From assembly GCF_900129645.1 (NCBI RefSeq), contig NZ_FSQZ01000001.1:1636001-1700000 (forward strand): a stretch of DNA of 64,000 nt, given 5' to 3'. A program made the position numbers and the translations under genes. Source of the DNA: Acetomicrobium flavidum. GTDB taxonomy: Bacteria > Synergistota > Synergistia > Synergistales > Acetomicrobiaceae. Below, one piece after another: positions 4,385 through 61,879 of this stretch (position 1 is its first letter; every line of letters begins with the position of its first letter). The notes under the pieces were generated by a model. The model saw only the letters and a program-made list of their open reading frames with translations. It was not told the DNA's origin and ran no database searches.

Positions 4385-5761
4385 ATGATCAAGTTTGGAA
4401 CGGACGGATGGCGTGGCATAATAGCCGATGATTTCACCATGGAGAACGTCAAAAAGGTTAGTTGGGCCATAGGAGAACATGTCCTTGAAAGATTTGGGCC
4501 GGGAGCTGTCGTTTTAGTGGCCCGTGATGGCAGGTTTTTAGGAGAAAGGTTTGTAAAAGTTTCAAGCCAAGTTTTGAGTGGCATGGGGTTGGAGCCGATT
4601 GTGCTGGAAGGGCCAACTGCAACTCCTGTATGTGCTTTTGCGGTTAAACATCTCAATGCCAAGGGCGCTGTAATGTTCACCGCAAGCCATAATCCACCGG
4701 AGTATCAGGGTCTTAAATTCATACCCTTTTATGCCGGTCCGGCGACTCCAGACATAACGTCGGTAATTGAATCATATATTCCCGATGCTCCCGCAAAGAT
4801 AAAGGTAGCAGAAGGGGATGCAAGGACATTTGACCCGACAGAGGATTACATTGCTCATGTGAAATCATTAGTCCAAATAAGCGGAAATGGTCAAGTGGTC
4901 GTGACGGATACCTTGCATGGCGTTGGTGGGAGATATTTACCAAGAATTTTGAGGGAATGCGGCTTCGAGGTAGTGTCCATAAACGAGGAGTTAAGACCTG
5001 ATTTTGCCGGGTTAAGTCCGGAACCCAAAAGGGAAACTCTAGGAAACCTTGCATCTGAGGCCAGAAAGTTAAAAACGCTTGGACTTTCTACTGATGGCGA
5101 TGCCGATCGCTTTGGCATTGTCGATGAGAACGGTGAGTTTTATTCGGCTAATTATATTTTAGCTATTCTCTATAATTATCTTTTGGAATCAGGCAGGAAG
5201 GGCGGTGTAGCAAGGACTGTCGCCACGACTCATATGTTGGATGAGATCGCAAGGATTGCAGGACAACCATCGTGGGAGACTCCTGTGGGCTTTAAATATT
5301 TAGGACAACTGCTCTTGAGGGAAAATGTTTTGCTCGCCGGTGAGGAATCCGGGGGTGCCTCTATAGCTGGCCATATACCCGAAAAAGATGGAATAATGAT
5401 ATGTCTTTTGGTCCTGAAAGCTGTTTGTGATAGCGGGCACCCTTTAAGAGTTTTGCTTGATGATATATACAAAAAACTCGGAGCAAGGTATGTGTCTATC
5501 AGGATGGATTTCAAAATTACCCATGAACGGAAAGAGCAGTTGATATCTGTGATGGACAAATGGAACGATGATACCTTTTGTGGTGAAAATGTCTTATCAT
5601 TGAGGAGAGACGATGGTTTGAAGATAGTTTGCGATAAAGGATGGGTTTTACTTCGCCCATCTGGAACAGAGGATGTCGTGCGCCTTTACATTGAGGCCAA
5701 TGGCGATGATATGTTGGAAAAACTTAAAAAATGTTCCTTGCAAATATTTGGTTTGGACTAG
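4385..5761 (+). CDS. Phosphoglucomutase/phosphomannomutase family protein
   Basis: A 458-residue alpha-D-phosphohexomutase that would interconvert sugar 1- and 6-phosphates. It starts IKFGTDGWRGIIADDF, carries the phosphoserine loop TASHNPPEYQG, the magnesium loop DGDADRFGIVD, the sugar-selecting GEESGG and the phosphate-binding RPSGTEDVVRLY, so all four domains and the catalytic residues are present. It could act on glucose or mannose phosphates; the start differs from typical GlmM. GTG 4376 and ATG 4379 are also in frame, but AGGTGAT at 4374-4380 best serves ATG 4385. It follows the peptidase gene with almost no gap and ends before a hairpin at 5818. Confidence 0.9.
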   Translation: MIKFGTDGWRGIIADDFTMENVKKVSWAIGEHVLERFGPGAVVLVARDGRFLGERFVKVSSQVLSGMGLEPIVLEGPTATPVCAFAVKHLNAKGAVMFTASHNPPEYQGLKFIPFYAGPATPDITSVIESYIPDAPAKIKVAEGDARTFDPTEDYIAHVKSLVQISGNGQVVVTDTLHGVGGRYLPRILRECGFEVVSINEELRPDFAGLSPEPKRETLGNLASEARKLKTLGLSTDGDADRFGIVDENGEFYSANYILAILYNYLLESGRKGGVARTVATTHMLDEIARIAGQPSWETPVGFKYLGQLLLRENVLLAGEESGGASIAGHIPEKDGIMICLLVLKAVCDSGHPLRVLLDDIYKKLGARYVSIRMDFKITHERKEQLISVMDKWNDDTFCGENVLSLRRDDGLKIVCDKGWVLLRPSGTEDVVRLYIEANGDDMLEKLKKCSLQIFGLD

Positions 5762-5781
5762 AAAATGTAAAATAAGCAATT

Positions 5782-5847
5782 TTGACCATGTTATTTCGAT
5801 GTCTGTTTGATATTCTTGGCCGAGAGATGAGCCTCCTCGGCCTTTTT
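5782..5847 (+). promoter_or_regulatory. Candidate pyrG promoter followed directly by an attenuator-like hairpin
   Basis: TTGACC (5782-5787) and TTTGAT (5806-5811), 18 bases apart, would place a transcript start near 5818. At exactly that point lies a hairpin: GGCCGAG (5818-5824), an 11-base loop and CTCGGCC (5836-5842), followed by five T residues (5843-5847). The hairpin could end the preceding operon, but no good promoter fits between it and the pyrG start at 5888. A terminator at the very 5' end of the pyrG transcript recalls the CTP-sensing attenuator of Bacillus pyrG. The layout is seen; the regulatory role is inferred. Confidence 0.5.
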
Positions 5848-5887
5848 AGATGAATGCAAATATGATAACGACGGAGGTAGACCATAG

Positions 5888-7486
<1,599 letters not shown>

Positions 7487-54014: not shown

Positions 54015-54527
54015 GTGGAAATTATTCTAGTAGATCCAAGGTCCATAGTGCCCACGTTATGCGTACTGGGAAGCCCCGTTTGCCGTTTCGAAGTCATATA
54101 TAGCAATGAGATAATTTTAAGTGTTGGCCCAACCGACAAGTTGACACAATGTGAAGCTCCATCCTGGTTGAAGGAAGCTTGGGATGCAATTTGGAATGGC
54201 GAAATGCCTGAGGTGATATTGGGGACGACCAAAAGAATTTCGGATTTCGCCCAAAAAGTATATCGCATTGTGAGAGAGATACCCATTGGGGAGACCAAAA
54301 CTTACGGCGAGGTGGCCTTTTTAGTCGGCAAGCCAAAAGGGGCAAGGGCTGTAGGCTCGATCTTGAGAAGTAACCCCTGGCCCCTCTTTATACCCTGTCA
54401 TAGGGTCATAGGTAAAAGCGGCAAACTTTTAGGTTATGGCGGAGCGCAAGGAATCGAATTAAAGGGACGCCTTTTGGCTTACGAAGCTGACAAATGTCGT
54501 AGTCTATACTATCCTCCATCCGTATAA
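54015..54527 (+). CDS. ogt: Methylated-DNA--protein-cysteine methyltransferase
   Basis: A 170-residue repair protein that takes the methyl group from O6-methylguanine onto its own cysteine. The active-site phrase is PLFIPCHRVIGKSGKLLGYGG and the helix-turn-helix region IPIGETKTYGEVAFLVGKPKGARAVGSILRSNPWP precedes it. The N-terminal domain is short and weakly conserved, as usual. The start is GTG. It is the last gene of the operon; its end overlaps the convergent malic-enzyme-like gene by 24 bases. Confidence 0.92.
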   Translation: MEIILVDPRSIVPTLCVLGSPVCRFEVIYSNEIILSVGPTDKLTQCEAPSWLKEAWDAIWNGEMPEVILGTTKRISDFAQKVYRIVREIPIGETKTYGEVAFLVGKPKGARAVGSILRSNPWPLFIPCHRVIGKSGKLLGYGGAQGIELKGRLLAYEADKCRSLYYPPSV

Positions 54528-55748
54528 TCTTTCCCATGTTTGTGCATACACTTTATTTTTAGGTATGGGATTCAGCGCTATGCCTTCCTCGACAGCGGCC
54601 TGAGCAACGGCTTCGGCTATTCGAGGAGTTGTCTCATCGCAAAATATGGGAGGCACTATATGGTCAGGAGAAAGGCGATTTTGGTCTACGGAGTTGGCAA
54701 AGCCATCTGCTGCCTCTAACAGCATTTTTGTTGTTATGGCAGCGGCACGTACATCAAGAGCTCCTCTCATTATGCCAGGGTATACCTGGAAACTGGCGAT
54801 TGGATTGATCGTCGCGGTCCAAAATTGGCTGCTTGCCACTATCGCGGCTCCAATTTCTTTGGCGAGAGCAGGGCTTATCTCCGGTTCGGGCATGGCCATG
54901 CTGAAGACAATGGGTTCCTTATTCATAAGCTTTATGTAATCTGGGTCAAGCGCATCCTTGGCCGATAATCCTATAAATACGTCCGCATTGCTCATGGCCA
55001 GTTTTAGATCTTGATAGTCAGCGTCTATGCCAAGCCTTTCAGCCAGTTTAGCCTGTTCCTGGTTCATAAATGGGTTTGCAGGCGTAAGGATTCCATGGCT
55101 ATTGACCATGACGATTTGTCTTGCACCCGCATCAAGGAGTAGTCGTGCCGTTGATATGCCTGCCTTGCCAGCCCCCCATATCGTTATTTTTATATCTTGA
55201 AGTTTTTTTCCGACCACTATTAAGGCGTTTTTAAGGGCTCCAAGAAGCGCTACTGCTATCCCGTAGTGGTCATCCGAAAAAACGGGGATGTCCAAAGTGC
55301 TTTGCAACTCCTCCAAAATCCTAAAGGAAGTTACCGACGTTATGTTGGATAAATTAAGGCCGCCTACGGTCGGAGTGATAAACCTGCACATCTGTACGAT
55401 TTCCTCAGCGCTTTTGGCTTCAAGGCAGACAGGGAAGGCGTTGATGTCCCCAAAGGTCTTGTATATCAAGCATTTCCCTTCAAGTATCGGCAGCACGGCG
55501 TAAGGATTTGGCTCTTCAAAATTTAATATGGAAGACCCATTGGATACCACAAAGATGCAATTACCCCTTCCCGTGTATTCGAAGGAGGCGTCTTGGTCCT
55601 TGTCTATGATATTTGCTACAGCGAGACTTCCGGGAAAGTAGTTGCAGGCAAGGTCATCCGTCGTGCGAAGCCTGCTAGATGGATACACTGTTACCTTGCC
55701 TTTAACTCGCTTGTGTAACTCGATTGCGCGATGCCATTCAGTTGACAT
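54504..55748 (-). CDS. Malic-enzyme-like NAD-binding protein with altered metal site
   Basis: A 414-residue protein with the malic enzyme fold: FEYTGRGNCIFVVSNGSSI (tyrosine near 58), EGKCLIYKTFGDINAFPVCL (Lys97), and the dehydrogenase Rossmann part KITIWGAGKAGISTARLLLDAG (about 187-207). The metal-binding acidic pair, normally in GGINLEDI, reads GGLNLSNI (Ser134, Asn135), and the next aspartates survive in VFSDDHYGIAVALLGALKNA. The GLGDLG stretch is also replaced. Ordinary oxidative decarboxylation of malate is therefore doubtful. It may act on another hydroxyacid or have lost catalysis. The downstream MBL-fold gene is not coupled by overlap. Confidence 0.85.
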   Translation of the reverse strand: MSTEWHRAIELHKRVKGKVTVYPSSRLRTTDDLACNYFPGSLAVANIIDKDQDASFEYTGRGNCIFVVSNGSSILNFEEPNPYAVLPILEGKCLIYKTFGDINAFPVCLEAKSAEEIVQMCRFITPTVGGLNLSNITSVTSFRILEELQSTLDIPVFSDDHYGIAVALLGALKNALIVVGKKLQDIKITIWGAGKAGISTARLLLDAGARQIVMVNSHGILTPANPFMNQEQAKLAERLGIDADYQDLKLAMSNADVFIGLSAKDALDPDYIKLMNKEPIVFSMAMPEPEISPALAKEIGAAIVASSQFWTATINPIASFQVYPGIMRGALDVRAAAITTKMLLEAADGFANSVDQNRLSPDHIVPPIFCDETTPRIAEAVAQAAVEEGIALNPIPKNKVYAQTWERLYGWRIV

Positions 55749-55760
55749 AAATTATCCTCC

Positions 55761-56567
55761 TCATAAATTAGACTCGATATCCTCTAAATCAAACTCCTGT
55801 CCGTCAAATGGCGCTATTACCTTACAACTGTCATTTGTCAAGTTATGGGCTATTTTTTCCGGCCCGGCCTCTATCACGCCTTTACCAAAGTGATTCAGTA
55901 TAATAGCCTTAGGTGCAATGATATCTCTTATCAATGCTATGTGGTCTGCGGCTAAATGGTCTATTCCATTTCTAATGTGATGAAATGTCATATTGACTAC
56001 TAAAAGCTCGCAATCGCTATACCTTCTTATGATTTCCTCGTCATATCGCGTATCACTGATAAACCCCAGAGTTTTCAATTTAGAATGTCTCAATATGAAA
56101 CCATAGCACTCTACGCCGTGATGTATGAGCTTGATAGCTTCAATATTTCCATCGGGTATGTACACCATTTTTTTGTCCTGCCAGTAGCTAATGCATCCTA
56201 TTTTCGAGTGGTAATGGGAAAGTAACACGCGCCCTTCTCCCAAGGCGGCGTCTTCTGGCAAGAGGAGCGTTCCCCGCTTTTTAAAACCTCCATGCGTAAC
56301 GGCTTCTATCATGACGTTTATATCGTTGCTGTGGTCCAGGTGCTTATGGGTTAAGATGATCATTTCTATATCTTCCGGGTTAAAGGGTTTGCCAGCCTCA
56401 CAAATTCTGACCAGCGAACCTGGTCCCGGATCGATTATGGCATGATATCCGTAAAGCCCCAACCATATACCACCAGTTGAGCGGGTTTGATTAATCATCA
56501 CAAACCTTGCTCCTCCGGTACCTAGAAACTTTAAAAATGCCCCATCGTAGAGCCGGTTTTGCTGCAT
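55761..56567 (-). CDS. MBL-fold metal-dependent hydrolase
   Basis: A 268-residue metallo-beta-lactamase-fold protein with the metal motif THKHLDHSNDINV and further ligands in FISDTRYDEEII and LNHFGKG. The start FLKFLGTGGARFVM resembles the RNase Z/PhnP-like branch, which cleaves phosphodiesters, but no single function is assured. I chose ATG 56567 after AAGGAG; a longer frame to 56630 runs back inside the isochorismatase gene. The two genes are nearly contiguous and cotranscribed. The malic-enzyme-like gene follows after 12 bases. Confidence 0.88.
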   Translation of the reverse strand: MQQNRLYDGAFLKFLGTGGARFVMINQTRSTGGIWLGLYGYHAIIDPGPGSLVRICEAGKPFNPEDIEMIILTHKHLDHSNDINVMIEAVTHGGFKKRGTLLLPEDAALGEGRVLLSHYHSKIGCISYWQDKKMVYIPDGNIEAIKLIHHGVECYGFILRHSKLKTLGFISDTRYDEEIIRRYSDCELLVVNMTFHHIRNGIDHLAADHIALIRDIIAPKAIILNHFGKGVIEAGPEKIAHNLTNDSCKVIAPFDGQEFDLEDIESNL

Positions 56568-56571
56568 ATGA

Positions 56572-57129
56572 TCATTGCTCCTTAAAGTAGGGTAACAGCT
56601 GTTTGAATTCTGGCGTGCCAGATACGCCAAGCCACTGATAAACTATGCTTTCAGTTGGCAATACAAGGGCGCCACATTGAGAAAGCGTTCCAAGGGCTGC
56701 TAGGTGATGTTGCTCACGCCTGCTACCCGATGCCTCCGATGCCACTATCACGGAGTAACCTTCCTTTAACAGATCAAGGGCAGTAGCTAATACGCATATA
56801 TGGGTTTCTATGCCGGCCAATACTATTTGTTCCCTTTCTTTGCCCAAGAACTCGATGAATCCCGGTTCATCGCAACAGGAAAAATGCACCTTTTCGAAAC
56901 GAGGCGTTTCGGGAGCAAGGAGGCATGATATGTCCGAAGCTGTATGGCCAAGCCCCTTAGGATACTGTTCAGTGTATTTTATGGGGATAGACAGCAGTTG
57001 TGCGCTTTTTAATAAAAGCTTAATGTGTTTTATAATTGATTCATTGCCTGTTATGTTTGGCAGCAAACGTTCCTGGACATCTATAATCACCAGTTGGGAC
57101 AGATTTTTCTTGAGCGTGTAAGACGTCAT
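56572..57129 (-). CDS. Isochorismatase/cysteine hydrolase-family protein
   Basis: A 185-residue hydrolase of the YcaC/isochorismatase type. The active-site Asp is in LVIIDVQERLLPNITGN; the Lys is in RFEKVHFSCC; the catalytic Cys is in VLAGIETHICVLATALDLL. It follows the YcaC subgroup, with ESIVYQWLGVSGTPEFKQLLP near the end. The native substrate of this subgroup is mostly unknown. ATG 57129 has GAAAGGAG upstream. The longer frame to 57270 covers a promoter-like intergenic stretch and is rejected. It leads the three-gene minus-strand unit. Confidence 0.88.
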   Translation of the reverse strand: MTSYTLKKNLSQLVIIDVQERLLPNITGNESIIKHIKLLLKSAQLLSIPIKYTEQYPKGLGHTASDISCLLAPETPRFEKVHFSCCDEPGFIEFLGKEREQIVLAGIETHICVLATALDLLKEGYSVIVASEASGSRREQHHLAALGTLSQCGALVLPTESIVYQWLGVSGTPEFKQLLPYFKEQ

Positions 57130-57268: not shown

Positions 57269-57904
57269 ATGGCAGGTAAGAAAGATAAGCATAATGCAAA
57301 CGATGATGAACAAGTTTATGTGGAGGACTTGCTCAAGATGATGTCATTGCAAGACTATCCGCCGTTCATCGAGAGATTGCTCTCTCAAATGCAGGGGTTT
57401 ATGTGGGGATTTGTGTCTGACGGTGAGGAGGTTAAAAGGGTAGAGGAGCTTGCATCTGAAGGATATGATCTCGATGATCCTCAATATTTGCTCGAGCAAT
57501 TAGCATGGATTAAAGAATATGCCGATTTGATAACTCCCGAGATTGAGGAATGCAATCGTGAAGAGGCTGTTATATTATCGTTTACCCCTATAGATAACGA
57601 TGAGGCAATAAGATGGGCCGTTGATCATGCAGCCTTGTTTGCCCGCGGTATTTGCCGCAGGATATGGATCTTAGGAGAAAACTGGGATTTGAGTGAGGTG
57701 CTTCAGTACTCAAAGCATATAAAGGCACTTGCAAAGATAGGCGTATCGATAAGGTTTCTCCTTCTGACGCCTTGGGGGTGGACGGAGGTTCCTCTCTTTA
57801 AGGAAATAAGCGGTGACGAAAAGCGTGGCCTGCTTTGGAAGGAAAGGCATAAAAAGAGAAATAACAATCTGCCAAAGGGAAACGACGAAGGAAAGACGCC
57901 ATAG
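57269..57904 (+). CDS. Hypothetical protein
   Basis: A 211-residue soluble protein that I do not recognise. It has a charged N-terminus (MAGKKDKHNANDDEQ), a helical middle (DLLKMMSLQDYPPFIERLLSQM), a possible alpha/beta core (EAVILSFTPIDNDEAIRWAV, then ICRRIWILGENWDLSEVL and VSIRFLLLTPWGWTEVP), and a lysine- and asparagine-rich tail. The last two core strands with a helix between suggest a Rossmann-like or universal-stress-like fold, which is a guess. GGCAGGAGGTG precedes the ATG. A strong hairpin follows the stop, so it is probably a single-gene transcript. Confidence 0.7.
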   Translation: MAGKKDKHNANDDEQVYVEDLLKMMSLQDYPPFIERLLSQMQGFMWGFVSDGEEVKRVEELASEGYDLDDPQYLLEQLAWIKEYADLITPEIEECNREEAVILSFTPIDNDEAIRWAVDHAALFARGICRRIWILGENWDLSEVLQYSKHIKALAKIGVSIRFLLLTPWGWTEVPLFKEISGDEKRGLLWKERHKKRNNNLPKGNDEGKTP

Positions 57905-57950: not shown

Positions 57951-59375
57951 TTATTCGGTCAATTGGTTAATTTGGAGGACCGTTTCAGGTTCTTCATCAA
58001 TTCTGGTCATAGTTATATTAAAATAACCGAAAACGAGTAATGTCAGTACCGTTAGGTAGTTAAAGCACGCATAGGGGTCATAAAGGAATGGAGTTATGCC
58101 CAGCGTTCCCTTTATGAAAGCACCGCATGTGTTCCATGGAACCAATGGCGAGGTTACGGTTCCAGCGCATTCCAGGGCTCTTGAAAGGTTTTTGGGATGA
58201 AGCCCCATCTTTCTGTAGGCATTTGCATACATGCGACCAGGCAGGACTATTGAAATATATTGTTCCGGCAACAGCATGTTTGATGTTATGCATGTAGCTG
58301 CAGTTGCTGCAACCAGATTTCCAACGGTCTTAACTTTTTTGAGAAGAGCATTTACCAATACTTCGAGTTGTTTTGTCTTTTCCATTATGCCTCCAAACAT
58401 CATTGCTATTATGGTAAGGGATATCGAATACATCATTCCCGTGAGCCCTCCGGCAGTAAGAAGTCCATCTATCATGGCGTTGCCTGATTGGCTCACATAA
58501 CCTCCATATCCAGCGTTTACTATGTTGCCGAAATTGACGTCCTGAAATATGAATGCTGCTATGGCTCCGGCTATGATGCCGATCGTTATCCCTGGGATTG
58601 CAGGAGCCTTCAGTGCTATGCAGATTATGACAATGAGCGGGGGCAACAATAGAAGAGGATTGATGTTAAACTGCGCCGACAGCGCATCTTGAATAGCCTT
58701 TATCTGAGACATATCCATGTTTGAAGAGGAATACCTCATTCCCAAAAGAAAGAATATCAAAAGAGACAAAGGATAGGATACCGCGCTCACCTTAATTGTG
58801 TGTTTGACATGTGTAAATATATCGGTGCCAGCCATGGCAGGAGCCAAGTTAGTCGTATCCGATAAAGGCGATATTTTGTCGCCAAAGTAGGCTCCACTTA
58901 CGATGGCACCGCCAGTTTGAGCAGGCGGTATTCCAAGCCCGGCCCCAATGCCCATCAGTGCAATTCCCATTGTGCCCATGGTACCCCATGACGTCCCGGT
59001 GGCCAGGGATACTATCGAGCAAATTAATAGAGTTGCAACTAAAAAGAATTTTGGAGAAATTATCATAAGTCCATAGTAAATCATGGAGGGTACTACGCCT
59101 GCTTCTATCCAAACTCCTATAAGAACTCCTATGATTGCCAATATGACTATCGCTTGTAATGCTTGAGTAATACCCTGCATCATGCCCATTTCTATGTCCT
59201 TCCATTTGTATCCGACTTTTAGGGCGATGATGCTCGCAAAAAGCGATCCCATCATCAGCGGAACGTGGGGATCCGTATGGTAGACGGCAAGGCATACTGC
59301 CATCACAATTACCAGCAGCCCTATTGAAACCAAAGAATCGATGATACTTGGTCTAGGCTCTTCCTTCGTGCCCAT
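57951..59375 (-). CDS. nhaC: NhaC-family Na+/H+ antiporter
   Basis: A 474-residue membrane protein with about 11-12 helices. The conserved core is LLICSIVSLATGTSWGTMGTMG and VSGAYFGDKISPLSDTTNLAPAMAGTD, the NhaC signature, with an inverted-repeat partner later on (ITSNMLLPEQYISIVLPGRM). It would exchange Na+ for H+, or an organic anion pair as in malate-lactate antiporters of this family. It is the last gene of the minus-strand module, separated from the MoaD-like gene by a hairpin. ATG 59375 is served by GAGGGGGT; a TTG at 59381 is in frame. Confidence 0.92.
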   Translation of the reverse strand: MGTKEEPRPSIIDSLVSIGLLVIVMAVCLAVYHTDPHVPLMMGSLFASIIALKVGYKWKDIEMGMMQGITQALQAIVILAIIGVLIGVWIEAGVVPSMIYYGLMIISPKFFLVATLLICSIVSLATGTSWGTMGTMGIALMGIGAGLGIPPAQTGGAIVSGAYFGDKISPLSDTTNLAPAMAGTDIFTHVKHTIKVSAVSYPLSLLIFFLLGMRYSSSNMDMSQIKAIQDALSAQFNINPLLLLPPLIVIICIALKAPAIPGITIGIIAGAIAAFIFQDVNFGNIVNAGYGGYVSQSGNAMIDGLLTAGGLTGMMYSISLTIIAMMFGGIMEKTKQLEVLVNALLKKVKTVGNLVAATAATCITSNMLLPEQYISIVLPGRMYANAYRKMGLHPKNLSRALECAGTVTSPLVPWNTCGAFIKGTLGITPFLYDPYACFNYLTVLTLLVFGYFNITMTRIDEEPETVLQINQLTE

Positions 59376-59408
59376 TATCAATACCCCCTCTGCCTTATGA
59401 TTTTTAAA

Positions 59409-59710: not shown

Positions 59711-61879
59711 TTAACTTTCCCATTCATCCTCGGGCTTAAGGTGTCTTTTTACTACCTCAACAACTTCCGGATAGTCGATCCCCAAACGCCTTAACGTCTC
59801 GATTGTTGGTATGCCGTTTTTGTTCCACCCTCTGCGCCTGTATACGGCATCGACGAGCTGCTCCCATTGGGACAAACGGTAATTTTGCAGCTTTTTGATC
59901 TTTTCCTCCGTCGAGAGATTTTCGGGGTCGATGCCTGCAGCTTTCAGCTCATTGTCATAGTAGTCGCTTCTTGCTTCCCATTCATCGGGAAACACCGGCC
60001 CTATTGCCCGCAAGGGGATGTTGTGGTCTTTTCGAGTCCCCCTGCCTAGCCTTAACTGAAAGACCCGCTGGAAGTTGTAAACCCTTTCGGATTGTATTAT
60101 CAGCTCTTCCTTGGTGATTTTCTTTCCGGTCACGGCGTTAAAAAGGTCTACGTAATTTTGGACGTGTTCAGGCACCTTGGCAGCTTCAATGCCTTTATAT
60201 TTGATGGCGTTGTCGGCTGGCTCAATGTCGTTCCATGGTAGTTTGCACAAGCCCACCAAAGAAAACCATAGCCTGAAGTTGGGGAAGTAATGCAAAGCTT
60301 CGGCCTTATCCTCGAACGTGGGTAATTGCTTGTTCACTCTGTCCATGAAGATCAGCCAGGCCTCGTCGTGTTGCGGTCCTTTTAGCGTGAGGAAATATCC
60401 GCCCCATTGAGCGACAGATTCCTTTGGTACATATTCCGATACCTCCAGGCCTTGACCTTCCATGCCTATGTTTTCGAGAACATCGCTAGGAGCTCCATAC
60501 TTTTCGGCAAATATCTTTTTCATCCGGTGGATACCAAGGCCAACAATGCGGGCAAACTCGTCGTCGCCACGCCCCATCCTGTGTATTAGCTCCATGATGT
60601 CATCCTTTGCCCCGAATTTCAACTCAAGTCCGTTAGTGATTTCCTTGTTAAGGAAACCAAGCTCGTAGCATTCGCACACGAAAGCTATGCCCGTTCCCAA
60701 GGATATGGTATCCAGTCCGTAATGATCGGCGTAGAAGTTGGCCTCGATGATCCATTCGGGATCGAAAACGCCAATATTGGAACCTAAACCGGCACAGGTC
60801 TCATACTCAGGTCCATCTACCGTAACTTTCCTGCCCTTTAGGGGGCCGGTTTTGAGCTCGAATTTATCGGCAGCTTTAGCGCAAGCCATGGAGCATCCAT
60901 ACCAACATCCATCGGGGATTCCTTGGGTGAATATCCGTTCAAAGACCTTTGAGTGGATCTTTGAGGCGTCCTTGTGTTGGCCGAACTTGTAGTTATGCAC
61001 TGGGAGGAGGTGATATTCGTTCATTATCTCGTTTAAATGTGGAGTACCAACCTTGCGCATCTTGTTTTGCTGGTCATCAAGGTCTCGAATCTCCTTGTGG
61101 AGTTTTAGGCCAACCCGTTGAAGTGTGGTTAGGTCCGCTGGGTTATTGCTCGAGGGCCCAATGCCTCTTTTCTTGACCACGATAGCTGCTAATTTTTTGT
61201 CGCGAAAGACCGTGCCGCCTCCGCCTCTTCCGGCTTGTTTTAGACGAGGTGTCTTTCGACGGAGATCGTAGAAGCTCATGTTAAGACATCCCCAGTAACT
61301 GTTTTCTGCGCCCTTGCCGGTAGACACCACCGATATGTTTCGCTTATCCTCCTCGTCTTCCGCGAAATATTCATGCAAGGCTTCGGTCACCGTAACGGCA
61401 TTTACTTCTTCAAAGGGCGATTCATAAATCTCAACTCTATTGTTATCTCCATCGATGAAGACGACGATGTCGCGATCGGCTTTTCCCTGGATTTCCAGTG
61501 CATCCCACCCCGAGAATTTAAGTAGCGGGCCAAAGTAACCGCCAGCATTGCTATCGTATGTTTGCTCCGTTAATGGTGAGATAAACACTGTATAACATTT
61601 GCCTGAACCAGGGTACTGGGTTATTCCACACAAAGGTCCCCCTGATATTACAATTTCATTTTCGGGATCGTTCCATTTTGTCGTATCCTTCACAGCGTCC
61701 CAAAGCAGCTTAAGGCCAAAGCCCCTTCCTCCTATGAACTTTTCCTTCATATCTTCAGATACGGGTCTTTCCTCGAAGCTAAAATTGCTGATGTTAACGT
61801 AAAGCGTCCTTCCGGCGTATCCTCTATAAATATTCACAGGTTTGTATTCCCATCTTGCGAGGAGCCTCATCTTGTCCAT
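59711..61879 (-). CDS. worL: Tungsten-containing aldehyde:ferredoxin oxidoreductase, large subunit (WorL-type)
   Basis: A 722-residue member of the AOR family, which oxidises aldehydes to acids with ferredoxin as acceptor using a tungsten-bispterin centre. N-terminal AOR phrases are VNIYRGYAGRTLYVNISNFS, KFIGGRGFGLKLLWD and the cofactor-binding GRGGGGTVFRDKKLAAIVVK. The [4Fe-4S] cluster cysteines appear in GCWYGCSMACAKAADKF and the fourth in the later LVGLCKLPWND. It is longer than the roughly 600-residue archaeal enzymes. With the four-cluster ferredoxin encoded just upstream it matches the heterodimeric WOR type reported from Acetomicrobium and gut bacteria (large WorL, small WorS). AAAGGGGGA precedes the ATG. 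Confidence 0.9.
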   Translation of the reverse strand: MDKMRLLARWEYKPVNIYRGYAGRTLYVNISNFSFEERPVSEDMKEKFIGGRGFGLKLLWDAVKDTTKWNDPENEIVISGGPLCGITQYPGSGKCYTVFISPLTEQTYDSNAGGYFGPLLKFSGWDALEIQGKADRDIVVFIDGDNNRVEIYESPFEEVNAVTVTEALHEYFAEDEEDKRNISVVSTGKGAENSYWGCLNMSFYDLRRKTPRLKQAGRGGGGTVFRDKKLAAIVVKKRGIGPSSNNPADLTTLQRVGLKLHKEIRDLDDQQNKMRKVGTPHLNEIMNEYHLLPVHNYKFGQHKDASKIHSKVFERIFTQGIPDGCWYGCSMACAKAADKFELKTGPLKGRKVTVDGPEYETCAGLGSNIGVFDPEWIIEANFYADHYGLDTISLGTGIAFVCECYELGFLNKEITNGLELKFGAKDDIMELIHRMGRGDDEFARIVGLGIHRMKKIFAEKYGAPSDVLENIGMEGQGLEVSEYVPKESVAQWGGYFLTLKGPQHDEAWLIFMDRVNKQLPTFEDKAEALHYFPNFRLWFSLVGLCKLPWNDIEPADNAIKYKGIEAAKVPEHVQNYVDLFNAVTGKKITKEELIIQSERVYNFQRVFQLRLGRGTRKDHNIPLRAIGPVFPDEWEARSDYYDNELKAAGIDPENLSTEEKIKKLQNYRLSQWEQLVDAVYRRRGWNKNGIPTIETLRRLGIDYPEVVEVVKRHLKPEDEWES

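Follow-up and report, generated by a model that had tools for sequence, protein, structure and literature searches.

Can a protein built on the malic-enzyme fold still be a malic enzyme (ME) when the acidic pair that holds its metal is missing? This question is raised by an open reading frame at positions 54504-55748 on the minus strand of a 64,000-nucleotide stretch of the Acetomicrobium flavidum genome (the whole stretch is referred to as the window), for which an earlier note, made from the sequence alone, had claimed a malic-enzyme fold without its metal-binding Glu-Asp pair. The frame starts with ATG, directly preceded by AGGAGG, and ends with TAG, and its product, a protein of 414 amino acids, was examined by Pfam search, structure alignment, AF2 modelling and Foldseek comparison. 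As judged from the residues tested, this ME-like protein is a relative of ME by descent, but is not a ME.

Two Pfam profiles, PF03949 (57.2 bits; cut-off 23.5) and PF00390 (26.9 bits; cut-off 23.1), were both matched above the cut-off level, and the ME of Thermotoga maritima (2hae) was aligned to residues 8-372 with an E value of 1.3e-75. The AF2 model, which holds no metal, gave a mean pLDDT of 92.3 and a pTM of 0.92, and the 50 PDB matches listed by Foldseek for this model were malic enzymes or MaeB; the identity to the T. maritima ME was 36%, and one of the matches listed, 2dvm, carries the title PH1275 protein. In NCBIfam, the protein stayed below the cut-off for all three families matched. 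The best of these was the MaeB family of NADP-dependent ME (NF009501; structures 9krw and 6zng), which is also represented among the top Foldseek matches, but the score of 213.8 bits over residues 7-404 is far below the cut-off of 1178 bits, and the match ends at position 420 of a profile 764 positions long. Malolactic enzyme (NF041582), belonging to the same superfamily, gave 51.3 bits and the cut-off of 850 was not approached. The nearest likeness was to the small NAD(P)-dependent ME such as T. maritima TM0542 (2hae/1vl6) and those of Pyrococcus horikoshii (1ww8), phytoplasma (5cee), and Entamoeba histolytica (3nv9), with which the two-domain fold is shared over nearly the full length.

According to the study of the E. 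histolytica enzyme (PMC11944484), ME cannot catalyse without a divalent metal; the small ME is given a Tyr, Lys and Asp triad and the metal ligands Glu, Asp and Asp, the third-ligand Asp equivalent is called "particularly crucial" for metal binding, and Lys120 is named as the catalytic Lys, Glu118 standing two positions ahead of it. When these roles were mapped onto the window protein, the triad was found to be retained as Tyr37, Lys92, and Asp159, and the third metal ligand as Asp160. The catalytic Lys was placed at Lys92 in EGK, because the spacing of Glu118 and Lys120 fits this motif (our mapping; PMC11944484). The earlier note had stated that the tyrosine, Lys97, and the later aspartates remain; Tyr37, Lys97, Asp159, and Asp160 are indeed all kept, but the catalytic residue is Lys92 and not Lys97. 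The Glu-Asp pair is lost as had been claimed: GGINLEDI of the Thermotoga ME reads GGLNLSNI in a stretch aligned with 2hae without gaps, placing Ser134-Asn135 (codons at 55344-55349, minus strand) at the canonical ligand positions, and Asp160 is the only member of the ligand set that is kept. The canonical TDG..GLGDIG segment, also claimed to be replaced, reads SNGSSILNFEEP.

The Rossmann part had been regarded as intact, which holds for the fold and for the GxGxxG motif, but not for the remaining cofactor contacts. The ANP motif reads AMP (Met286), and the NQINN loop reads NPIAS (Ala318-Ser319) with a two-residue insertion, Trp310-Thr311 (codons at 54816-54821, minus strand), in the loop equivalent to DFPNQINN. 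An acidic residue ends beta2 of the Rossmann domain in NAD-type ME; in the window protein the Asp is replaced by Asn216. Around the triad Asp, canonical His-Asp-Asp-Gln-His/Gln is replaced by Ser158-Asp159-Asp160-His161-Tyr162 (codons at 55263-55277, minus strand; roles mapped from PMC11944484). Beyond the metal pair, the substrate or cofactor positions 158, 216, 286, 318, and 319 are invariant in canonical ME and differ in the window protein. In summary of the comparison with small NAD(P)-dependent ME, the triad, the third metal Asp and GxGxxG are shared, but Ser-Asn, AMP, NPIAS with its insertion, the beta2 Asn and the Ser before Asp-Asp are not; the C-terminal stretch is also unlike that of small ME and is common to a subfamily within Synergistota (see below).

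The replacement at the metal site is shared by all genomes of the genus that were searched. A single-sequence search of genome contigs detected three Acetomicrobium loci, the relatives named by it being Acetomicrobium at 77-78% identity, and the gene was present with its frame open over the full length in all six Acetomicrobium genomes searched, including that of the window. Ser-Asn was found at the metal pair in each of the six, and therefore the substitution is not attributable to chance or sequencing error. Besides this change of Glu-Asp to Ser-Asn, the features that set Acetomicrobium apart from its relatives are Gln161 to His, Asn319 to Ser and the Trp310-Thr311 insertion; the latter is present in 6/6 Acetomicrobium rows, and 52/53 relatives and all 12 canonical rows have a gap at this site. 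The dN/dS ratio (NG86) was 0.044-0.065 for the six pairs that four close genomes provide (dS was saturated in the remaining nine of the 15 pairs), and 0.046-0.111 by YN00 in the three of these six pairs for which it was estimable; the corresponding NG86 value for the canonical ME of the genus was 0.031-0.049 (three close pairs). Both the claim that the replacement is conserved in relatives and the claim that this full-length protein is not a decaying pseudogene were thereby borne out. Within a set of 80 positions of active-site and cofactor motifs picked by us, 68 were invariant among three Acetomicrobium lineages (window, G004, and G003), against 220 of 334 positions elsewhere (Fisher p 4e-4). 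Ligand-bearing relatives gave a comparable contrast, with 66/80 and 61/80 of the same set invariant, the value for the canonical ME of the genus was 76/80, and motif conservation was 0.85 for Acetomicrobium, 0.82 for the ligand-bearing f10 rows and 0.95 for the canonical ME of the genus. Motif conservation in Acetomicrobium is therefore close to that of ligand-bearing rows and lower than that of canonical ME, indicating constraint, not the kind of chemistry.

An ordinary ME is encoded elsewhere in the same genome as a separate second gene, with GGINLEDI, HDDQQGTA, ANP, and NQINN. Among canonical ME of Synergistota, all 40 sequences fetched for comparison retain Glu-Asp, Asp-Asp, ANP, NQ-x-NN, and the beta2 Asp, the first alignment, with 12 canonical rows, shows no exception either (the beta2 Asp, both acidic pairs, ANP, and NN were examined there), and 10 of 10 ME matches in viral_contigs are canonical including Glu-Asp, as far as each sequence reaches. 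The canonical ME of Synergistota are 34-41% identical to the window protein among the matches listed for 185 genomes, and those of the genus itself 31-32%. At one locus of the genus (L012, genome G002), the canonical ME forms the C-terminal end of a 768-residue open frame, which may be a fusion or an artefact of assembly; its counterparts elsewhere are 444-447 residues in length.

For relatives of the window protein, a total of 389 genomes were searched, consisting of 185 from Synergistota and 204 from outside the phylum. The ME-like subfamily was identified in at least 59 of the 185 Synergistota genomes, i.e. the six of Acetomicrobium and 53 others at 39-49% identity; this count was made from the best-scoring matches listed and from reading of the motifs, by which low-scoring fragments could be missed. 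Outside Synergistota, the subfamily was not seen in the limited sample examined: five of the best outside matches are canonical, with the motifs looked for intact as far as the sequences reach, one of the five being a fragment. Among the matches listed in a full-text literature search, judged by titles and the openings of abstracts, no ME paralogue of Synergistota and no metal-free ME was found. The alignment consisted of 71 non-identical rows and the tree of 70, L014 being left out as near-identical to L100. In this quick maximum-likelihood tree, 59 ME-like rows were split from 11 canonical rows with an SH-aLRT support of 100, and the window protein was located on the subfamily side. The six Acetomicrobium rows formed one clade (support 100) on a stem of 0.99 changes per column. 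The program warns, however, of long branches coming together where the subfamily and the genus's own canonical ME join, and the tree does not fix the branching order inside the subfamily.

In the 53 relatives, substrate and cofactor positions are altered, but the metal pair is mostly kept. Glu-Asp is present in 46 and Asp-Asp in four (together 50/53), and EN, EG, and EH are found once each. The ANP Asn and the first Asn of NN are absent from all 53, and the beta2 Asp is changed to Asn in 49. In place of the canonical YTPGV, HDD, ANP, and NQxNN, the family mostly has Y-V/I-PGS, CDD, ALP, and NxMPN, respectively; the subfamily residues are recognized in the window protein as Ser41 (instead of Val), Ser158 (instead of His), Met286 (instead of Asn), and Asn216. 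Lys92 is present in 53/53 relatives and Tyr37 in 51/53, one of the two exceptions being a truncated row; Lys97 is common to 12/12 canonical, 6/6 Acetomicrobium and 52/53 relative rows, and Asp160 is invariant across all 71 rows of the alignment. The simplest reading of this pattern would be that the loss of Glu-Asp is a late step, the substrate and cofactor residues of the subfamily having changed earlier while Glu-Asp was kept. If any missing ligand is counted as a loss, the tree of 70 rows requires three changes, each of them within the subfamily. Further subfamily losses were noted in L081 (G149; Glu-Gly), L084 (G144; Glu-His with Gly-Asp), and L075 (G139; Glu-Asn); the two of the three changes that fall outside Acetomicrobium sit in draft genomes, for which sequence errors are possible. 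The paralogue family of Synergistota, the late loss of Glu-Asp that it suggests and the ordinary ME elsewhere in the genome are all points that the earlier reading had missed.

The organization of neighbouring genes supplies a further view of the subfamily. Upstream of the ME-like gene in the window is a gene for an MBL-fold hydrolase with HxHxDH (55761-56567, minus strand; PF12706, 48 bits), for which ATG at 56567 is the putative start, the mechanical open reading frame starting with TTG at 56630. It is preceded by a gene for an isochorismatase-like hydrolase (56572-57126, minus strand, with a putative start at 57126; PF00857, 110.1 bits), of which the closest structures are MAR1-type and other isochorismatase-family proteins. 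These three genes presumably form an operon, with the isochorismatase-like gene as the first. A set of 59 locus rows was compared, which represents 58 distinct places (L005 and L009 are the same place) and does not include that of the window. Relatives of the flanking genes, with their relative orientation conserved, were found for an unknown protein in 54, a PEMT-like protein in 51, an LPG_synthase_TM-like protein in 49, isochorismatase in 46, and MBL in 37. Fewer than 90 nucleotides separate the ME-like gene from the preceding MBL or isochorismatase gene in 54 of 59 rows. The neighbours in the window (isochorismatase, MBL, PEMT-like, and LPG_synthase_TM-like) match this arrangement. The ME-like loci are orthologous, and the subfamily is inherited at one conserved locus.

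HxHxDH was present in 50 of 50 best-match MBL frames, counted as one per locus identifier with repeated places included, and an MBL gene was detected in 78 of the 185 Synergistota genomes (E 1e-20). MBL and ME-like proteins as an obligate pair were not supported by the distribution, both being present in 37 genomes, ME-like alone in 22 and MBL alone in 41. In L048, L058, and L073, a class I/II aminotransferase gene (PF00155) separates ME-like from MBL or isochorismatase, and in L075 such a gene lies just downstream of the ME-like gene. These neighbours may suggest chemistry on amino or oxo acids, but their number is too small for a conclusion, and the gene order as a whole points to no clear substrate. 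In L060, the frame at 4775-5959 (plus strand), just before the ME-like gene, resembles an aminotransferase by appearance alone.

Several other genes around the locus were also noted. The unknown protein of 211 amino acids (57269-57904, plus strand) is encoded divergently beside the ME-like locus in the 54 rows mentioned above. It gave no Pfam match in a search to E 10 and no good PDB fold match (best E 0.41), its AF2 model being of moderate quality (mean pLDDT 74.3), and Arg115, Asp119, Cys129, Trp133, and His150 are among its invariant residues (49 rows). Beyond it in the window are genes for an NhaC-type Na+/H+ antiporter (57951-59381, minus strand) and an aldehyde:ferredoxin oxidoreductase (59711-61879, minus strand), and in 22 of the 59 locus rows a relative of the latter is also encoded close to ME-like.

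What the protein does can be approached by weighing several explanations. The best of them, in which we place somewhat less than even confidence, is that the Acetomicrobium protein would be a neofunctionalised ME paralogue that no longer decarboxylates malate and turns over another acid with NAD(P) and independently of metal. That it could instead be an ordinary ME with misaligned ligands and an unchanged reaction, as the overall fold and the identity to the T. maritima ME might suggest, is highly improbable, since the motif alignment is ungapped, the canonical-invariant positions listed above differ in addition to the ligands, and a canonical ME is already present in the same genome. Decay into a pseudogene has only the loss of catalytic ligands in its favour and carries next to no weight; it was rejected on the basis of the open frames in 6/6 genomes, the low dN/dS and the motif constraint, the same replacements being fixed across three lineages at approximately 77-78% identity. 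A different or weaker ion might be held by Asp160, perhaps together with Asp159, His161, Ser134/Asn135, and the carboxylates of the substrate. Because Asp160 is kept and His161 is new, such an altered site is conceivable, if rather improbable: Asp160 is invariant and its equivalent is called crucial for the E. histolytica enzyme (PMC11944484), and His161 is invariant in 6/6 Acetomicrobium rows, but in all six genomes neutral residues stand in place of two of the three protein ligands, and the motif set yielded no new invariant acid. The screen behind the last statement, for Asp, Glu, His, or Cys invariant in the six Acetomicrobium rows and present in less than 10% of the 53 relatives, returned seven residues, Glu4, His6, Asp31, Glu110, His161, His218, and Glu231, with none of the acids inside our motif set. 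Asp31 is located two residues ahead of the Tyr motif, His161 directly after the Asp-Asp motif and His218 in the beta2 cofactor motif, and the replaced TDG..GLGD segment carries no acid common to all six rows (Glu79 and Asp81 are each found in 5/6). A shifted loop supplying the acidic ligands, which the earlier note had named as the way in which its reading could fail, is therefore unsupported within the motif set.

The main rival is a pseudoenzyme, in which the ME fold would be kept for ligand binding or regulation, such as nucleotide or organic-acid sensing or protein pairing, with no redox catalysis. The alteration of the metal pair, the ANP Asn, the NN pair, and the NAD Asp all together, and the long stem of the Acetomicrobium clade, are in agreement with this possibility, and with the NAD Asp and the ANP Asn both changed, the binding of NAD itself could be lost. 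Tyr37, Lys92, Asp159, and GxGxxG are nevertheless retained, Lys92 throughout the relatives, and conservation is higher in the motifs than over the remainder of the protein, although binding in the absence of catalysis would give an identical pattern of conservation. A ligand-binding pseudoenzyme accounts for nearly as much of the observations as a metal-free oxidoreductase; taken by itself, we consider it a serious but doubtful candidate.

For the metal-independent enzyme favoured here, the following order of events may be proposed. In the first step, after duplication of a small bacterial ME, the pocket for the substrate and the contacts to the cofactor would have been rebuilt with the triad kept, the metal ligands being retained in most lineages of the subfamily. 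Since the nicotinamide ribose touches the ANP motif in the E. histolytica ME (PMC11944484), the subfamily probably altered the holding of both cofactor and substrate. In the second step, on the stem of Acetomicrobium, Glu-Asp of the first metal motif would have been changed to Ser-Asn. With this change two negative ligands and an ion of two positive charges are removed together, leaving the charge of the pocket unchanged, and therefore the metal site could go cleanly. The protein would still bind NAD(P), and Lys92 and Asp159 (and Tyr37) would serve hydride transfer or acid-base chemistry, in a reaction on a different hydroxy- or oxo-acid that proceeds without decarboxylation assisted by Mn or Mg. 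Because Lys92, Asp159, and Tyr37 remain, a metal-free oxidoreductase is plausible. In shikimate dehydrogenase, a Lys-Asp pair supports hydride transfer without metal; the likeness to such metal-free Lys-Asp dehydrogenases is a proposal and concerns the mechanism only, and the window protein is not a member of that group. The whole scheme taken together, namely an ME scaffold that underwent a charge-neutral deletion of its metal site and became a metal-independent NAD(P)-linked enzyme for a new substrate, with its relatives recording that the pocket changed first and the metal was lost last and with at least two further losses, is put forward tentatively, being an unlikely scheme to hold in full.

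For genome annotation these results carry a warning: at least 59 of 185 Synergistota genomes carry an ME-fold protein whose reaction is probably not that of malic enzyme, and metabolic models could therefore gain a false malate route. For the family itself, a conserved relative of ME lacking two of three metal ligands, together with 50 orthologues that have kept the ligands, would make up a natural series for the loss of a metal and the change of a reaction.
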